Source of the DNA: Elusimicrobiota bacterium
GTDB taxonomy: Bacteria; Elusimicrobiota; Elusimicrobia; F11
Assembly (NCBI GenBank): GCA_022072025.1
Contig: JAJVIP010000017.1
Coordinates: forward strand, 1-53,461
Direction: 5' to 3'
Length of the DNA: 53,461 bases
Position 1 is the first letter of the stretch. Each line of letters opens with the position of its first letter. The position numbers and the translations under genes were made by a program. This document shows, one piece after another, positions 47,632-53,461 of the stretch. The notes under the pieces are model-generated. The model was not told where the DNA came from, made no database searches, and saw only the letters and a list, made by a program, of their open reading frames with translations.

Positions 47632-47823
47632 GTGAGAAAAAATGATGGCGATGTTTTTAAGCGGTGGCTAAAAATGGAAAGACTCAGCTACGAGAAATTT
47701 GCTCAGAAAACTGGGATCCAATATGGAACGATGTTGAAATGGACGCGTGGCGCAAAGCCGCGGCCAGTAACCCAAAAATTAATTCGACGAAAATTTCCTG
47801 ACTGCCCTTTGGTATTGGAATGA
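47632..47823 (+). CDS. Small XRE-like helix-turn-helix protein
   Basis: A 63-residue protein from GTG 47632, with GGAG about 8 nt upstream. The sequence VFKRWLKMERLSYEKFAQKT followed by GIQYGTMLKWTRGAKPRP fits a five-helix XRE/Cro-type DNA-binding fold: Tyr-Glu-Lys-Phe-Ala in helix 2 and Gly-Thr-Met-Leu-Lys-Trp in the recognition helix. It is short, with nothing beyond the DNA-binding part. It may regulate itself and the cluster that starts 60 bp downstream. Confidence 0.6.
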   Translation: MRKNDGDVFKRWLKMERLSYEKFAQKTGIQYGTMLKWTRGAKPRPVTQKLIRRKFPDCPLVLE

Positions 47824-47883: not shown

Positions 47884-49563
47884 ATGGAACCGACGACTGA
47901 AAAGAATGAACAACCACAAAGGACGGAGTCTACAGGCGCAGATCGTAGGCTTAACTGTCGTTTGCTCCACAATACGGCAATCAAGGTGGTGCCAATTGAC
48001 AGCACGAGGGTTCAGGCTCGCGAAACCAACAATGGTGAAATCATTGACATTGGACTCGGTGGAATCAAGTTTCAAACCAACATTAGGTTGGAGAATGGGC
48101 ATAAAGTTCACGTCAATCTGGATCTTGAAAAATTTGGAGTTGTTGAACACCTAGGGGGAACTGTTGTTTGGGGAGAATCAATCATCCCATTCTTCAATGG
48201 TTTTGGGCAGGATAAGCAGCCTTCCACTCAGCTCGCTCACCAATATGGCGTCAAATTTGATCAAACCAATCTCCATCAGATGCAAACGCTTGTCAGTTTC
48301 CTCGATTCAAATCTCTCGTCGCGCCATTCTCGGAAATTGGGAATAAATAGACGACGCTACGACTACTACCAAAGCTTTATTTCTCAAGCAAAGGAGAAAA
48401 AGGCTTATTACGAACCGCGCACCCCCGAAAGCGCTCCTTGCCCAGTCGTGAAAATCGACGGCAGGGAAATAATTCAACTCTGTTCAAATAACAGTCTGGG
48501 AATGAGTGTGGACCCGCGCGTGGTTAAGGCCGCAAGAGAATCTTTGGAAATTTTCGGAACTGGATGCGGAGGGTCTCGGCTCGTTTCTGGAAATCTATCT
48601 ATTCAAAAAAAATTGGAACAGAAATTGGCTTCTTTTATGGGATATGAAGAAGCGATTGTATTGATGACAGGCTATATGGGGAATTTGGGTGTTATAGAAG
48701 CGCTGACCAATACCTATGACCTCAATCGGTTGCCTGGAAAGGAAAACATTGTCGGTATTTTCACTGACCACGAAAACCATAAAAGCATCATTCATGGTTG
48801 TCAGCTGGCCGCGGTTAAAAATTCGGCCGTCATTCGAACTTATGACCATCTTAATATGTCGCATCTGGAAGAACAGCTGCGCACAACGCATACCAGCAGA
48901 AAAATTATTATTACGGAAGGCGTATTCAGCATGCGTGGCGATTTGGCGCCACTTCCTGAGGTCGTTTCATTAGCGAAAAAATATAAAGCTTTGGTCTATT
49001 TGGATGATGCTCACGCGATCGGCCATTTGGGGAAAAGAGGGCGCGGATCCATTGAGCATTGGGGCATCAAGAGTGTCGATATTGTTTTGGGAACGTTCAG
49101 TAAGGCTTTTGGCGCCGCTGGGGGGTTCTTGGTTGCAAAGGCCGATTTATGTGAATTCTTAAGGCTCCAAACCAATACGTATATTTTCAGTTCAGCACTT
49201 CCACCAGCGACTGTTGGCGGTGTTTTGGAATCCCTAAATCTCATTGAGAACGAGCCAAGCATTCGGGAAATTTTTTGGGAGAACGCGAGATATTTCCGAC
49301 AGGCAGTTGCGAAGAAAGGGTTCGATACGTTGGGATCACAAACCCATATTACGCCTATTTTCATTGGTCCGGATGAAAAAGCCATTCGGATCGCTGACCG
49401 GCTCTTTGACAAAGGCATTTTTATTCCCGCGATAAGGTGGCCAGCGGTTGCGCCAGGCCAATCGATTCTTCGATGTATGGTAATGGCGCAACACACCAAA
49501 GCACAATTGGATTTTGTCGCTGAAGAGTTAGCGAAATTGGGACGACAAGAAGGAATTATTTAA
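47884..49563 (+). CDS. PilZ domain fused to alpha-oxoamine synthase
   Basis: A 559-residue protein. An in-frame stop just upstream fixes ATG 47884 despite a weak ribosome site. Residues ~20-140 are a PilZ-like domain: RLNCR at 22-26 matches RxxxR, but the second motif reads DIGLGG where Ser is expected (D/N-x-S-x-x-G). Residues ~150-555 are a PLP-dependent alpha-oxoamine synthase (BioF/Kbl/SPT/CqsA family): TDHENHKSIIHG, LDDAHAIGHLG (Asp 374, His 377) and GTFSKAFGAAGG with PLP Lys 407. These enzymes join an acyl-CoA to an amino acid with loss of CO2. No biotin or sphingolipid genes are adjacent. The kinase downstream suggests a signal synthase, controlled through PilZ (inference). Confidence 0.85.
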   Translation: MEPTTEKNEQPQRTESTGADRRLNCRLLHNTAIKVVPIDSTRVQARETNNGEIIDIGLGGIKFQTNIRLENGHKVHVNLDLEKFGVVEHLGGTVVWGESIIPFFNGFGQDKQPSTQLAHQYGVKFDQTNLHQMQTLVSFLDSNLSSRHSRKLGINRRRYDYYQSFISQAKEKKAYYEPRTPESAPCPVVKIDGREIIQLCSNNSLGMSVDPRVVKAARESLEIFGTGCGGSRLVSGNLSIQKKLEQKLASFMGYEEAIVLMTGYMGNLGVIEALTNTYDLNRLPGKENIVGIFTDHENHKSIIHGCQLAAVKNSAVIRTYDHLNMSHLEEQLRTTHTSRKIIITEGVFSMRGDLAPLPEVVSLAKKYKALVYLDDAHAIGHLGKRGRGSIEHWGIKSVDIVLGTFSKAFGAAGGFLVAKADLCEFLRLQTNTYIFSSALPPATVGGVLESLNLIENEPSIREIFWENARYFRQAVAKKGFDTLGSQTHITPIFIGPDEKAIRIADRLFDKGIFIPAIRWPAVAPGQSILRCMVMAQHTKAQLDFVAEELAKLGRQEGII

Positions 49564-49570
49564 GGGGGTA

Positions 49571-50890
49571 ATGATGATCAGAGCACGAAAAATATTGAGT
49601 CTTTTTGCGGCATTACTCATGCTATCGCAATCGCATGTTTTCGCTGTTGGATCTAGAGGACTGGGAAATCAGGCGATTGGCGCATACTCATTGGGCCAAG
49701 CGAATGCGGTGGCCGCACGCGCGGAGGACATATCAACAAACTTTTTCAACCCCGCAGGATTGAGCCATTTGAGTGGAATCCATCTGAGCGGGGGATTCGA
49801 TCTGTTAGCTCCAGAATATTCGCATACCAGTACCAGCGGCGCCAAAGAGGACGCGAAGGACAATTCCTTTTTTGTCCCCAACTTATTTCTGGGAGGAGAA
49901 GTCAAAAACACAAAATTTTCATGGGGATTGGGGATGACTTCTCCTTTTGGACTCGCAACAGAGTGGAGCAAGACCGGATTCTCCAAGTATGTGGCAACCA
50001 AATCTGAATTAAAGACTTTGCACGTCAACCCAAACGTTTCGTATCGATTCAATGAGAAAATATCGGCGGCCATTGGCGCCGACTATATGCGATCTGATGC
50101 GGATCTCCAGCGGCAAGTCAACGTTTTTGCGGTGAATACGACGTTGCCTCCATTCACAATCGATCCAACAACTCCCGATGGTAGCTTTCAGCAAGAGGGA
50201 GATGGCGATGGCTGGGGATATAATCTCGGTCTCATGTTTAACCCCTTTCCAAACCATCGATTGGGACTGGCTTACCGAAGTCGAATTAGCATGACTGTTG
50301 ACGGAACTGCAAAACTTTCCAATATGAGTGGAAGTATGGCGACCGTATTTGGAGGCAGTACTTATTCAACTGCCGGTGAATCGGTGCTGAAATATCCCGA
50401 TTCAACAACGTTGGGGTACTCAATTAATTTCAGCGAGAAATTGACTGTTGAAACTGATATCGAATGGACAGGATGGTCGACCTTTAAAGAGCAACGTGTT
50501 ACCTACACACAAGAAACGGATCCCACCCGGCTCGCAATTTTAAACTCTGGAAACCCGCAGTCTAGGAAGTGGAAGGACGTGTTAAGTTTGGCGATTGGCA
50601 CCCAATATAAACTGAATGAGCAATGGGCCTTGCGTGGCGGATACTTATATATGGACTCGCCGGTTCCGAATGAGACGTACGAACCTTCGGTTCCGGATTC
50701 TGATTTGCATGGACTGTCGATTGGTACGGGCTATACGGTTGGCCGTGTCTCCTTGGATCTGGCGTATTTGGCTAATTTCTTCAAATCGAGGAACGTTTCA
50801 AATAATGTTGGAGCGCCCTTATCGGATGTGGACGGAAAGTATGAGTCTTTTTCCCATTCGCTGGCCTTGAATGCCACTTACAGATTTTGA
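49571..50890 (+). CDS. FadL/OmpP1-family outer-membrane transporter
   Basis: A 439-residue protein (ATG 49571, or 49574, which sits better behind AAGGGGG at 49562-49568). Signal peptide LSLFAALLMLSQSHVFA. The mature protein starts with the FadL hatch pattern (GLGNQAIGAYSLGQANAVAA, STNFFNPAGLSHL), followed by alternating beta strands and ending LALNATYRF with the terminal Phe typical of outer-membrane barrels. FadL proteins pass hydrophobic compounds such as fatty acids across the outer membrane. Beside an oxoamine synthase it could release or take up the hydrophobic product. Confidence 0.88.
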   Translation: MMIRARKILSLFAALLMLSQSHVFAVGSRGLGNQAIGAYSLGQANAVAARAEDISTNFFNPAGLSHLSGIHLSGGFDLLAPEYSHTSTSGAKEDAKDNSFFVPNLFLGGEVKNTKFSWGLGMTSPFGLATEWSKTGFSKYVATKSELKTLHVNPNVSYRFNEKISAAIGADYMRSDADLQRQVNVFAVNTTLPPFTIDPTTPDGSFQQEGDGDGWGYNLGLMFNPFPNHRLGLAYRSRISMTVDGTAKLSNMSGSMATVFGGSTYSTAGESVLKYPDSTTLGYSINFSEKLTVETDIEWTGWSTFKEQRVTYTQETDPTRLAILNSGNPQSRKWKDVLSLAIGTQYKLNEQWALRGGYLYMDSPVPNETYEPSVPDSDLHGLSIGTGYTVGRVSLDLAYLANFFKSRNVSNNVGAPLSDVDGKYESFSHSLALNATYRF

Positions 50891-51831
50891 ATGTTTTGGA
50901 AAAAGACCATCAGATAATTGATTTTCACACGCATCTCGGAGATGTGTGCAGCGGTTGTTATCCAAGAAAAGCGGTTCCGAGTCGGTTAGGATTTGTTACG
51001 CCCAATCTTTTGGAGAAGACTTCGCATAACAAGATCCTCACGCAGGTCATCGGATCACCTTTTTTCCCGAAATCCCCACTGATATCATCGGCTGTCACCT
51101 CAGCATCCTTCGGTAATTCCTCGAATCTCATCGCTGAAATAAAAAGTAATGGCGTGGCCAAAGCGGTTATTTCTCCCATCGAACCATTTGTCTCCACCAG
51201 CGAGGTGGCTTCTGAATGTCAAAGGTATCCGGATCAGCTGGTTGGATTGATGTCCGTTAATTTCGCTAAATTTACGGTGCAGCAAATTCAGGAGGCGATC
51301 CGAACTCAATCAAAATTGAGGCATTGCCCAGGAATTAAATTCCATCCGAATCTTCAAGGCGTACATCCGCATTCAGAAAAAGCCCAGGCCCTTTTTGATA
51401 CTGCAGAAAAGGAAAAGATGTTTGTTCTTGTCCATGGGGGCATCACTCCTATCGTCTATGGGGATGAGCGCCGCTTTTCTGTTTCGGAAACCCTGATTGC
51501 AGCTCTAAAACCCTTCCCTTCCTTAAAGGTGATTGTAGCCCACGTCGGAAGTTATTTTCGTACAGACGATGATTTCGTGGAGAAAGTTTTGCAAATGCCA
51601 AATATTATGGTTGATACGAGCGGGGTTAGCCCAGACGTTATATTGCACGCGTTGGAAATTCTTGGCCCAGAGCGAGTGATATACGGCTCAGATTGGCCGT
51701 ATGGGACGATGCGGTATTCACTGAAATTTGTTCGAGAGGCAGTGACCAAGTATTGTTCGGGAAATAAAAATGATTGCGAAACTGTGCTCGCAAGAATTTT
51801 AAGTAAGAATGCTGAGGCATTGTTGTCATGA
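50887..51831 (+). CDS. Amidohydrolase-2 family metal-dependent hydrolase
   Basis: A 314-residue protein. TTG 50887 overlaps the FadL stop (TTGA), and TTG 50896 is an alternative. TIM-barrel amidohydrolase landmarks are in order: DFHTHLGD (metal-binding His-x-His), GIKFHPNLQG, FVLVHGG, VIVAHVGSY and VIYGSDWPYG (Asp). Related enzymes are decarboxylases or hydrolases of small carboxylic acids or lactones (gamma-resorcylate decarboxylase/PDC-type). Substrate unknown. Within the cluster it could mature or degrade the synthase product. Its stop overlaps the kinase start (ATGA). Confidence 0.85.
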   Translation: MNVLEKDHQIIDFHTHLGDVCSGCYPRKAVPSRLGFVTPNLLEKTSHNKILTQVIGSPFFPKSPLISSAVTSASFGNSSNLIAEIKSNGVAKAVISPIEPFVSTSEVASECQRYPDQLVGLMSVNFAKFTVQQIQEAIRTQSKLRHCPGIKFHPNLQGVHPHSEKAQALFDTAEKEKMFVLVHGGITPIVYGDERRFSVSETLIAALKPFPSLKVIVAHVGSYFRTDDDFVEKVLQMPNIMVDTSGVSPDVILHALEILGPERVIYGSDWPYGTMRYSLKFVREAVTKYCSGNKNDCETVLARILSKNAEALLS

Positions 51832-53461
51832 ATATTACGGGGGTCAGTGTATTGATTTTTCTCGTTACCCTCCTGAATTTGGGCTTTGGACTGTTCACGC
51901 TCAAGAAGGGCCCCCAAAAAAAGACAAGCACCGTCTTTTTTTACATTTGTCTTTGCTTGTCTGTATGGACGGCATCACACGCAATCGCGCTCACGGTGAC
52001 GAGCAATGAACTGGCTCTATTTTGGACACGCATGATTATGGTTGGAGCCATTTTTCTTCCGTGGACGTTCAGTTGGTTTGCAAACGTCTTTGAAGACGAC
52101 TCCTACGTCCTCAAGTGGCCGATTTTTATTCTCCATATCTCGGTTGTGGCGTTCCTATTGGTGAACGTGTTTTCGCCAGACATGATCAGAGAGGCTTTTA
52201 TCACCAGGGGCGGAATTGTTTGGAAAGGCGGGTGGGTATTTAATCTCTATTTCACTTACTACGCGCTGTTCATGGGGTATGGGATTTTTGTTTTCGTCAA
52301 AAAACGAGCCCAAGCCAAAGGATTATTTCGGGCTCAGCTCTCGTATGTTTTGTTTGGGGCTATTTCCAGCATTTCCCTGGGATTGTTGGTAAGCATTTTT
52401 CTGCCAATAATTGGTGTGACGCAACTCAATAAATATGGACCGGTTGGGACATTGTTAATGATTGGGTCTTTCTCCTATGCGATTGTCCGATACCGGTTAA
52501 TGGATCTTCGCGTGTTCATAAGGGAAACCGCGCGATATTTTTTGTCGGCCGGTTCGCTGGCATTTCTTATGTCGTTTGTCGTCGTGGTTGCCGCTGGAGA
52601 TCTGCGCCTTGGTTTCCTTGTCTTCCTGCTTTCACTGTTATTGCCGATAGGGCAGAGGCGATTAAATAACTGGATTGTGGCCGAGCTAAGTAGGCGAGGT
52701 TTGATTAATTCGAAACAGGCGCAAAGGGTAAAAACAATTTCTGACCGGATTCAGGGTGTTGGCCCGAATATCGCCCATTTGGGAGCAACCATCACCGAAT
52801 TAATGCTTGATCTGATGCCAACGACCGAGAGTTCTTCGTTTTTTGTTGTGAACACCGAAAAAAACCTCTTTGAAATGGTGGCCGGGGCAGGAAACATAAA
52901 AACACGTTTTGAAGCGATTCAAACTTCCGATCCGCTCATCGAATACCTGGACAAAAATCAGCGAGTGCTCGTTAAAAGTGAAGGCGCGAGATCATTTCCT
53001 GGCGGAAATTTCGAGGAAATAAGAAAAACATTTGAAGCCTACAAAGGAGAGGTTTGCGCGCCTTTAGTCGTTCTTGAAAAGGTTGTGGGTCTTATCTTTC
53101 TCGGAGAGAAATCAGATCATAGGGCCTATTTTCTTAATGAAGTTGAGGAAATTGAGAATGTCGCAAAAGAAGCGTCCATCGCTTTAAAGCATGGCTTAAC
53201 AATGGCGAATTATTCTTCAGAGATAAAAAAGTGGGCTCATGATTTAAATCAAACCCTGAAACCATTATCACAAGGTTTCGAAGTTCTTGTGAATAACGAC
53301 CCCAGCATTGCTGATGATCCTGTGAGGTCTGCAGTTTATGACAAAATGAAAAGGCCCTTAAAAAAGTTGAAGGAATTTCTTCACTTTTTGGCTCAAGGCG
53401 CCCGAATTATGGGTGACACACTGCGAAATCAATACCAATTGGAACCGATAAACATCGAGGA
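51828..53461 (+). CDS. 7TM-GAF sensor histidine kinase, 3' end missing
   Basis: ATG 51828 overlaps the previous stop (ATGA). The frame is open to the window end (544 codons) and the gene continues beyond. Seven to nine hydrophobic helices occupy residues ~5-290 (VLIFLVTLLNLGFGLFTL, FYICLCLSVWTASHAIAL, ending VRYRLMDLRVFIRETARYFL), as in HisKA_7TM-type sensors. A GAF-like domain follows (~305-450; SSSFFVVNTEKNLFEMVAGA, VCAPLVVLEKVVGLIFLGEK). The dimerisation helix has WAHDLNQTLKPL with the probable phospho-acceptor His 471. The ATPase domain would lie outside the window. It probably senses a small, possibly hydrophobic signal. Confidence 0.8.
   Translation, partial: MNITGVSVLIFLVTLLNLGFGLFTLKKGPQKKTSTVFFYICLCLSVWTASHAIALTVTSNELALFWTRMIMVGAIFLPWTFSWFANVFEDDSYVLKWPIFILHISVVAFLLVNVFSPDMIREAFITRGGIVWKGGWVFNLYFTYYALFMGYGIFVFVKKRAQAKGLFRAQLSYVLFGAISSISLGLLVSIFLPIIGVTQLNKYGPVGTLLMIGSFSYAIVRYRLMDLRVFIRETARYFLSAGSLAFLMSFVVVVAAGDLRLGFLVFLLSLLLPIGQRRLNNWIVAELSRRGLINSKQAQRVKTISDRIQGVGPNIAHLGATITELMLDLMPTTESSSFFVVNTEKNLFEMVAGAGNIKTRFEAIQTSDPLIEYLDKNQRVLVKSEGARSFPGGNFEEIRKTFEAYKGEVCAPLVVLEKVVGLIFLGEKSDHRAYFLNEVEEIENVAKEASIALKHGLTMANYSSEIKKWAHDLNQTLKPLSQGFEVLVNNDPSIADDPVRSAVYDKMKRPLKKLKEFLHFLAQGARIMGDTLRNQYQLEPINIE

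Follow-up and report, generated by a model that had tools for sequence, protein, structure and literature searches.

The genes at the end of the DNA stretch analyzed here, a window of 53,461 nucleotides from an Elusimicrobiota bacterium, form one module of a recurrent family in which the PilZ-fused enzyme differs from module to module on a homologous chassis of FadL channel, sensor kinase, regulator and cyclase. We propose that this family constitutes an undescribed type of lipid-signalling cassette, in which the enzyme product would pass through FadL and be read by the 7TM kinase; the chances of this proposal appear to us evenly balanced. The genes present and their order, the identity of their domains, their conservation and the exchange of enzymes were observed directly in the genomes. 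The window covers positions 1-53461 of contig C17 in a 3.64-Mb genome (G000), and the contig could be read past its end. The initial annotation had placed a PilZ-synthase, a FadL, an amidohydrolase and a 7TM kinase in this region; Pfam confirmed all four, which lie on the + strand, and a unit made of synthase, channel and sensor is still the best reading of the locus, whose components are the following.

47632..47823, + strand: small Cro/C1-type HTH protein (63 aa), first gene of the cluster, 5' of the synthase
47884..49563, + strand: PilZ-fused alpha-oxoamine synthase (AOS) of 559 aa (Pfam/NCBIfam, AF2, invariant catalytic residues)
47995..48303, + strand: PilZ domain of the synthase (Pfam 31.1 bits, cut-off 22.5; motif scan)
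49571..50890, + strand: FadL-family outer-membrane hydrophobic channel (Pfam PF03349, Toluene_X/FadL, 255 bits)
50887..51831, + strand: amidohydrolase-2 family metal-dependent hydrolase or decarboxylase (Pfam PF04909, Amidohydro_2, 83 bits)
51828..53461, continuing to contig position 53903, + strand: 7TM sensor histidine kinase (HisKA_7TM 63 bits, HATPase_c)
53930-54427 of the contig, outside the window: receiver-only response regulator of 165 aa (ORF; alignments with sibling regulators)

The genes follow each other head to tail in the order HTH, PilZ-AOS, FadL, amidohydrolase and 7TM kinase, and the receiver gene comes next, past the end of the window. The junctions between synthase and FadL, FadL and amidohydrolase, and amidohydrolase and kinase measure +7, -4 and -4 bp, as short or overlapping as initially described, and the amidohydrolase begins with a TTG codon overlapping the FadL stop. 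A response regulator beyond position 53461 had been set beforehand as a test of the locus, and the receiver gene was indeed found 26 bp 3' of the kinase; its product has no output domain and aligns with sibling receivers that match Response_reg. The complete kinase (691 aa) is laid out as 7TM-GAF-HATPase, with HATPase_c scoring 58 bits; Pfam HisKA gave no match, and the AHDL motif was recognized by eye. With a HATPase domain, a phosphoacceptor histidine and a cognate receiver, kinase and regulator qualify as a two-component system. The channel scores far above the PF03349 cut-off of 29.7 bits expected of a FadL outer-membrane transporter. In the amidohydrolase, the HxH motif (residues 14 and 16), His183, His219 and Asp269 are invariant with the orthologue described below.

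A search of the genome for PilZ domains revealed three further long PilZ proteins besides the window synthase, each directly flanked by a HisKA_7TM protein and separated from a FadL by at most one gene. They define three sibling modules.

Module B (contig C6, locus L057): FadL, PilZ with a further domain lacking a family match, kinase, receiver, 7TM-cyclase
Module C (contig C10, locus L058): HTH, FadL, PilZ-HMGR-like protein, kinase, receiver, 7TM-cyclase
Module D (contig C43, locus L059): PilZ-AAR/PigE-like reductase, 7TM-GAF protein, FadL

All four FadL proteins of the genome scoring above the Pfam cut-off sit by PilZ-fused and HisKA_7TM proteins, and nine of the ten HisKA_7TM matches of the genome fall at these loci. 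By a rough estimate, the probability that random placement would put the four FadLs no more than two genes from the four fusions is ~5e-11. Since short spacing is common in bacteria, such genes might be mere chance neighbours in a gene-dense region; this explanation is refuted by the fourfold recurrence in the genome, the conservation in another family and the overlapping reading frames, which leave it a probability close to nil. Modules B and C share identical spacers of 112 bp between regulator and cyclase and of 22 bp between enzyme and FadL, and each also has a solo PilZ gene and one other protein, conserved at 63% identity from one module to the other. Module D is preceded by an OmpR-type regulator and four additional 7TM kinases. 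Next to several modules lie large proteins containing alpha/beta-hydrolase segments. The C-terminal domain of the module B fusion has one weak match as a possible GNAT (LBL_2463, E 1.7e-4); its AF2 model yielded no usable fold (pLDDT 38), and a PDB profile search with two cyanobacterial relatives returned no match.

Identity between modules amounts to 36-66% for FadL, 31-48% for the receiver, 33-42% for the cyclase and 23-35% for the kinase, whereas the enzyme domains display no similarity to one another (z at most 1.7 against shuffled sequence). The FadLs of modules C and D are 66% identical despite their unrelated HMGR-like and AAR-like enzymes, and the channel therefore does not track enzyme chemistry. 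In the PilZ-HMGR of module C, the catalytic Glu is replaced by Gln and the catalytic His by Asp, so at least one of these 'enzymes' may act by binding and not by conversion. Additional versions were collected by running a FadL profile over the phylum and inspecting the neighbourhoods of the best matches: a double PilZ fused to a 4HBT (hotdog) thioesterase and a PilZ-methyltransferase, both in G001; a PilZ-aldehyde dehydrogenase (Aldedh) with a 7TM-cyclase and a FadL farther off in G022; an AAR cut by a contig end in G003; and an AOS in G002, taken up below. At locus L130, a ketosynthase without PilZ is located 3' of a FadL that is sister to the module B FadL. All the enzymes recognized use acyl thioesters, aldehydes or acids as substrates or belong to the methyltransferases. 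The module FadLs form a single clade (SH-aLRT 99), to which FadLs of families f8 and f15 also belong; no module was found in the neighbourhoods of the latter. A search of 226 genomes of the class recovered no orthologues of PilZ-HMGR, PilZ-AAR, module B or PilZ-methyltransferase, bar one AAR relative (G003). A FadL-profile scan of GTDB contigs, carried out with few patterns, found FadLs in many phyla and module neighbours only in Candidatus Obscuribacterium magneticum (L131), which NCBI places in Elusimicrobiota, and partly at L130; within the reach of these few patterns it detected no clear module outside this Elusimicrobiota lineage. The membership of the window locus in a module family with interchangeable enzymes had escaped the initial annotation.

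The initial annotation made its reading depend on conservation of the cluster, and the same set, partly reordered, is present in a genome of another family of the same class (G008, locus L052). The five genes encode there a receiver, a FadL, a PilZ-AOS, an amidohydrolase and a 7TM kinase, with the order of FadL and synthase swapped relative to the window. Identity to the window proteins is 62% for FadL, 54% for PilZ-AOS, 44% for the amidohydrolase, 34% for the kinase and 24% for the receiver. By domain it reaches 61% for AOS and 46% for the 7TM part of the kinase, whereas PilZ stands at 33% and the remaining kinase at 28%. The best conserved parts are thus AOS, FadL and 7TM, which would be the ones contacting a ligand, and we count this pattern in favour of a lipid-signal cassette. 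The window 7TM shares only 21-29% identity with the sensors of the other modules. Among the modules found, the amidohydrolase is restricted to those of the window and G008, and of 341 genomes of the phylum only 2 carry the window-type PilZ-AOS fusion itself; scanning GTDB contigs with the synthase as a single query sequence gave no match.

The synthase consists of a PilZ domain (residues 38-140) followed by an Aminotran_1_2 domain (residues 195-548, 172 bits). Its AF2 model has a mean pLDDT of 79.5, with most of the AOS domain above 90, and its best fold match is the Thermus enzyme ThAOS (PDB 7POA; TM 0.92 over the target, 39% identity). The PLP lysine Lys407, within TFSKAFG, as well as Asp374, His377, His299 and Arg530, are invariant among 11 homologues; as a PLP-binding lysine is common to all AOS, it does not discriminate for CqsA or LqsA. 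Plain BioF, Kbl or SPT identity was rejected, all scores lying under the curated NCBIfam cut-offs: 366.7 bits against 426 for BioF, 337.6 against 460 for Kbl, and 329, 294 and 255 against 640, 500 and 670 for the SPT models, the first of which is the Bacteroidetes type. The SPT-like genes of the phylum, at 536-551 bits, likewise stay under the strict SPT cut-off. The BioF of the G008 bio operon scores 440 bits, and a separate BioF-like gene adjoins a BioD-like gene in the window genome (L011). A tree of 42 AOS proteins places the enzymes of the window and G008 in a separate clade (100/99), outside the phylum's Kbl-like and SPT-like groups. On these sequence grounds, we class the window synthase as a distinct AOS, whose predicted reaction condenses an amino acid with an acyl thioester to give an alpha-aminoketone. 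ThAOS is promiscuous: it accepts several amino acids and acyl-CoAs of C2-C8 and forms a broad set of alpha-aminoketones from them (PMC10230504).

A firm grouping with biotin or sphingolipid enzymes, which the initial annotation had held against its own reading, was not found. No bio genes stand beside the synthase in the locus neighbourhood, no tdh was seen among its neighbours, and neither an acyltransferase, a reductase nor an ACP gene lies next to it. This bears on another explanation, membrane-lipid remodelling, in which AOS would make a sphingoid-like or aminoketone lipid of the envelope while FadL and the kinase would serve lipid homeostasis. SPT and the sulfonolipid enzyme are indeed among the AOS relatives, and real SPT genes, located beside a GNAT acyltransferase, occur in the phylum. 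The synthase, however, falls far below the SPT cut-off and outside the SPT clade, a tree forcing it into that clade being borderline in the AU test (p 0.052); it lacks the neighbours just mentioned, and remodelling leaves the HMGR, AAR, thioesterase and methyltransferase cassettes unexplained. We consider it improbable. In G002, an AOS with an N-terminal extension in which Pfam does not detect PilZ clusters in the tree with the SPT and sulfonolipid enzymes, away from the pair formed by the window and G008. A single clade of the G002 AOS and the window-type fusions is not rejected (AU p 0.143), and two separate AOS recruitments are accordingly unproven.

The kinship with CqsA and LqsA that the initial annotation had put forward did not withstand comparison. 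The AOS tree was built without CqsA, profile scores being used in its place: the model for alpha-hydroxyketone (AHK) autoinducer synthases (NF005526) gives 166.8 bits for the window synthase and 173 for its G008 orthologue, against a cut-off of 428, and in the PDB, Thermus ThAOS (295 bits) ranks first, ahead of Sphingobacterium SPT (281), with CqsA at 81. On these family-model and PDB scores the kinship was rejected. Quorum sensing by alpha-hydroxyketones of the CqsA/LqsA type, suggested by an enzyme of the same superfamily next to a multi-TM kinase and a receiver, is largely refuted by them; the HisKA_7TM sensor and the unrelated enzymes of the sibling modules argue against it as well, and we hold it to be very improbable.

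Gating by c-di-GMP was also put forward initially. The window PilZ domain has an RxxxR motif (RLNCR), whereas its second motif reads DIGLGG, with Ser replaced by Gly; the G008 orthologue has the canonical DISLGG. A motif scan found c-di-GMP motifs retained in most module PilZ domains: those of G008, module B and module C are canonical, and the window and module D have partly degenerate ones. Judged by these motifs, c-di-GMP gating of the window module is no more than plausible.

For the lipid-signalling cassette, we infer the substrate, the product, the control by c-di-GMP, the direction of transport and the identity of product and kinase ligand as follows. The PilZ-fused enzyme would use acyl-CoA or acyl-ACP to produce a hydrophobic small molecule, its activity or location being tuned by c-di-GMP bound to the PilZ domain. 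The molecule would cross the outer membrane through FadL and be sensed in the membrane by the 7TM kinase, which would signal to the receiver-only regulator; in some modules, output would probably also proceed via the 7TM class III nucleotide cyclase and the small HTH repressor. The amidohydrolase could trim or degrade the molecule, in the window a putative aminoketone, and exchange of the enzyme on the same chassis would give rise to new signal types. Weighing against the proposal are the close similarity of FadLs that accompany unrelated enzymes, the altered catalytic residues of the PilZ-HMGR, the Ser missing from the second PilZ motif of the window and the occurrence of the window-type fusion in only two genomes. 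Somewhat more tentatively, we envisage a combinatorial platform: a chassis made of HTH protein, FadL, 7TM kinase, receiver, 7TM nucleotide cyclase and solo PilZ would accept, in PilZ-fused form, any enzyme acting on acyl thioesters, so that one genome could run several private or parallel lipid channels, each gated by c-di-GMP.

The main rival explanation does without a self-made signal. FadL would import lipids from the surroundings, from prey or from a host, the PilZ-enzyme would capture or modify an acyl compound, and the 7TM kinase would report on it. FadL proteins import hydrophobic compounds, and such scavenging and sensing would agree with a FadL that is well conserved across modules with different enzymes, with the altered catalytic residues of the HMGR-like domain and with the large alpha/beta-hydrolase-segment proteins at several modules. 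Yet no FadD or beta-oxidation genes were seen in the modules, which differ in this from the usual fatty-acid uptake set; AOS uses up an acyl thioester in forming a C-C bond, a biosynthetic and not a catabolic step; and conservation of the window 7TM sensor is limited to the module that has the same AOS. We judge scavenging unlikely, though deserving of serious consideration.

Several known systems share parts of this design. Gene sets made of a synthase, a kinase and a regulator are known as PhcB/PhcS/PhcR/PhcQ (PMC8578825) and LqsA/LqsS/LqsR (PMC3376566). The Phc system of Ralstonia resembles the modules in combining an enzyme for a fatty-acid-derived signal (the methyltransferase PhcB), a sensor kinase and receiver regulators, one of them receiver-only (PMC8578825). 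This likeness is drawn from the described gene content, and one sibling module carries a PilZ-methyltransferase. The Phc operon has no described FadL or PilZ, and the present family exchanges its enzyme among paralogous modules. Cqs and Lqs (CqsA-CqsS and LqsA-LqsR-LqsS) likewise have a regulator and a multi-TM kinase next to an AOS-superfamily synthase (PMC3376566); here the synthase scores outside the AHK family, the sensor is of the HisKA_7TM type, and a PilZ fusion, a FadL and an amidohydrolase are added. ThAOS (PDB 7POA), the closest solved relative in sequence and fold, is by contrast a stand-alone enzyme without PilZ, for which no signalling neighbourhood was noted. In rhizobia, FadL takes up long-chain AHL signals (PMC9938287), and the Sinorhizobium protein is a channel for a long-chain quorum-sensing signal (PMC9938287), a parallel to the signal passage proposed for the module FadL; fadL and the synthase are separate genes there, whereas channel, synthase and sensor share one cluster here. 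In the literature, as far as our incomplete coverage extends, nothing linking PilZ, FadL, quorum sensing and histidine kinases was found, one unrelated review aside. There is a reasonable chance that the interchangeable-enzyme design represents a new principle. If the cassette proposal is true, it joins enzyme-plus-kinase quorum sensing, passage of lipid signals through FadL and PilZ control by c-di-GMP in one operon. It would also provide concrete lipid-signal candidates (an aminoketone, an aldehyde, a fatty acid or an ester) in a little-known uncultured lineage, and the exchange of enzymes on a fixed sensing chassis would make the origin of lipid signal languages directly testable; the platform, if real, would be a new bacterial route for evolving such languages. 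Even without a self-made ligand, a family that links PilZ-fused lipid enzymes with FadL channels and 7TM kinases appears undescribed.

The small HTH gene at the head of the cluster was absent from the initial gene list. Its product shares 55% identity with an HTH protein encoded 5' of a FadL in G002 and 69% with the HTH ORF located 5' of the module C FadL. The window copy matches Pfam HTH_26 weakly, and the module C copy exceeds the cut-off of this model.

The PilZ fusion protein in module C of the source genome scores 362 bits against Pfam HMG-CoA_red, although its catalytic Glu is replaced by Gln and its catalytic His by Asp; no further HMGR was found in the genomes of the class that were searched. 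This protein and four of the other features considered here are as follows:

L058 (contig C10), 13950-15608: PilZ-fused HMG-CoA-reductase-like protein of module C
L059 (contig C43), 9527-19155: five 7TM proteins clustered around the single PilZ-AAR (acyl-ACP reductase) gene of module D
L130, 1045-1755, and L114, 8605-9300: proteins of about 235 aa with a degenerate HATPase end, adjoining receiver genes
L057, 10440-11957: unassigned C-terminal domain of the module B PilZ protein, with relatives at L206, 4800-5879, and L207, 2797-3891
Window, 23359-46767: YD/RHS-like ORF of 7802 aa with alpha/beta-hydrolase segments

Four of the five 7TM proteins of module D are complete histidine kinases. A comparable kinase row adjoins the thioesterase module of sister genome G001 (L116:2832-8994). 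The proteins of about 235 aa look like ChpT-type phosphotransfer proteins; if they are, the pathway would be a phosphorelay.

In the cyanobacterium Gloeothece, conjugative plasmids carry relatives of the module B domain that are about 25% identical and annotated as hypothetical.

The YD/RHS-like ORF stops shortly upstream of the window module, and a homologous segment (36-43% identity) adjoins a FadL/7TM locus in sister genome G002 (L112:872-3064). A second, distinct family of large proteins, whose ends are shared and swapped, adjoins module D, where two tandem copies are 91% identical (L059:1741-7523), and the G002 loci L117 and L121.

In several Elusimicrobiota families, serine palmitoyltransferase-like alpha-oxoamine synthase genes adjoin a GNAT acyltransferase of about 370 aa, often also beside an rfaE-like nucleotidyltransferase (L024, L025, L030, L031, L035, L042); synthase and acyltransferase probably constitute a sphingolipid gene pair.
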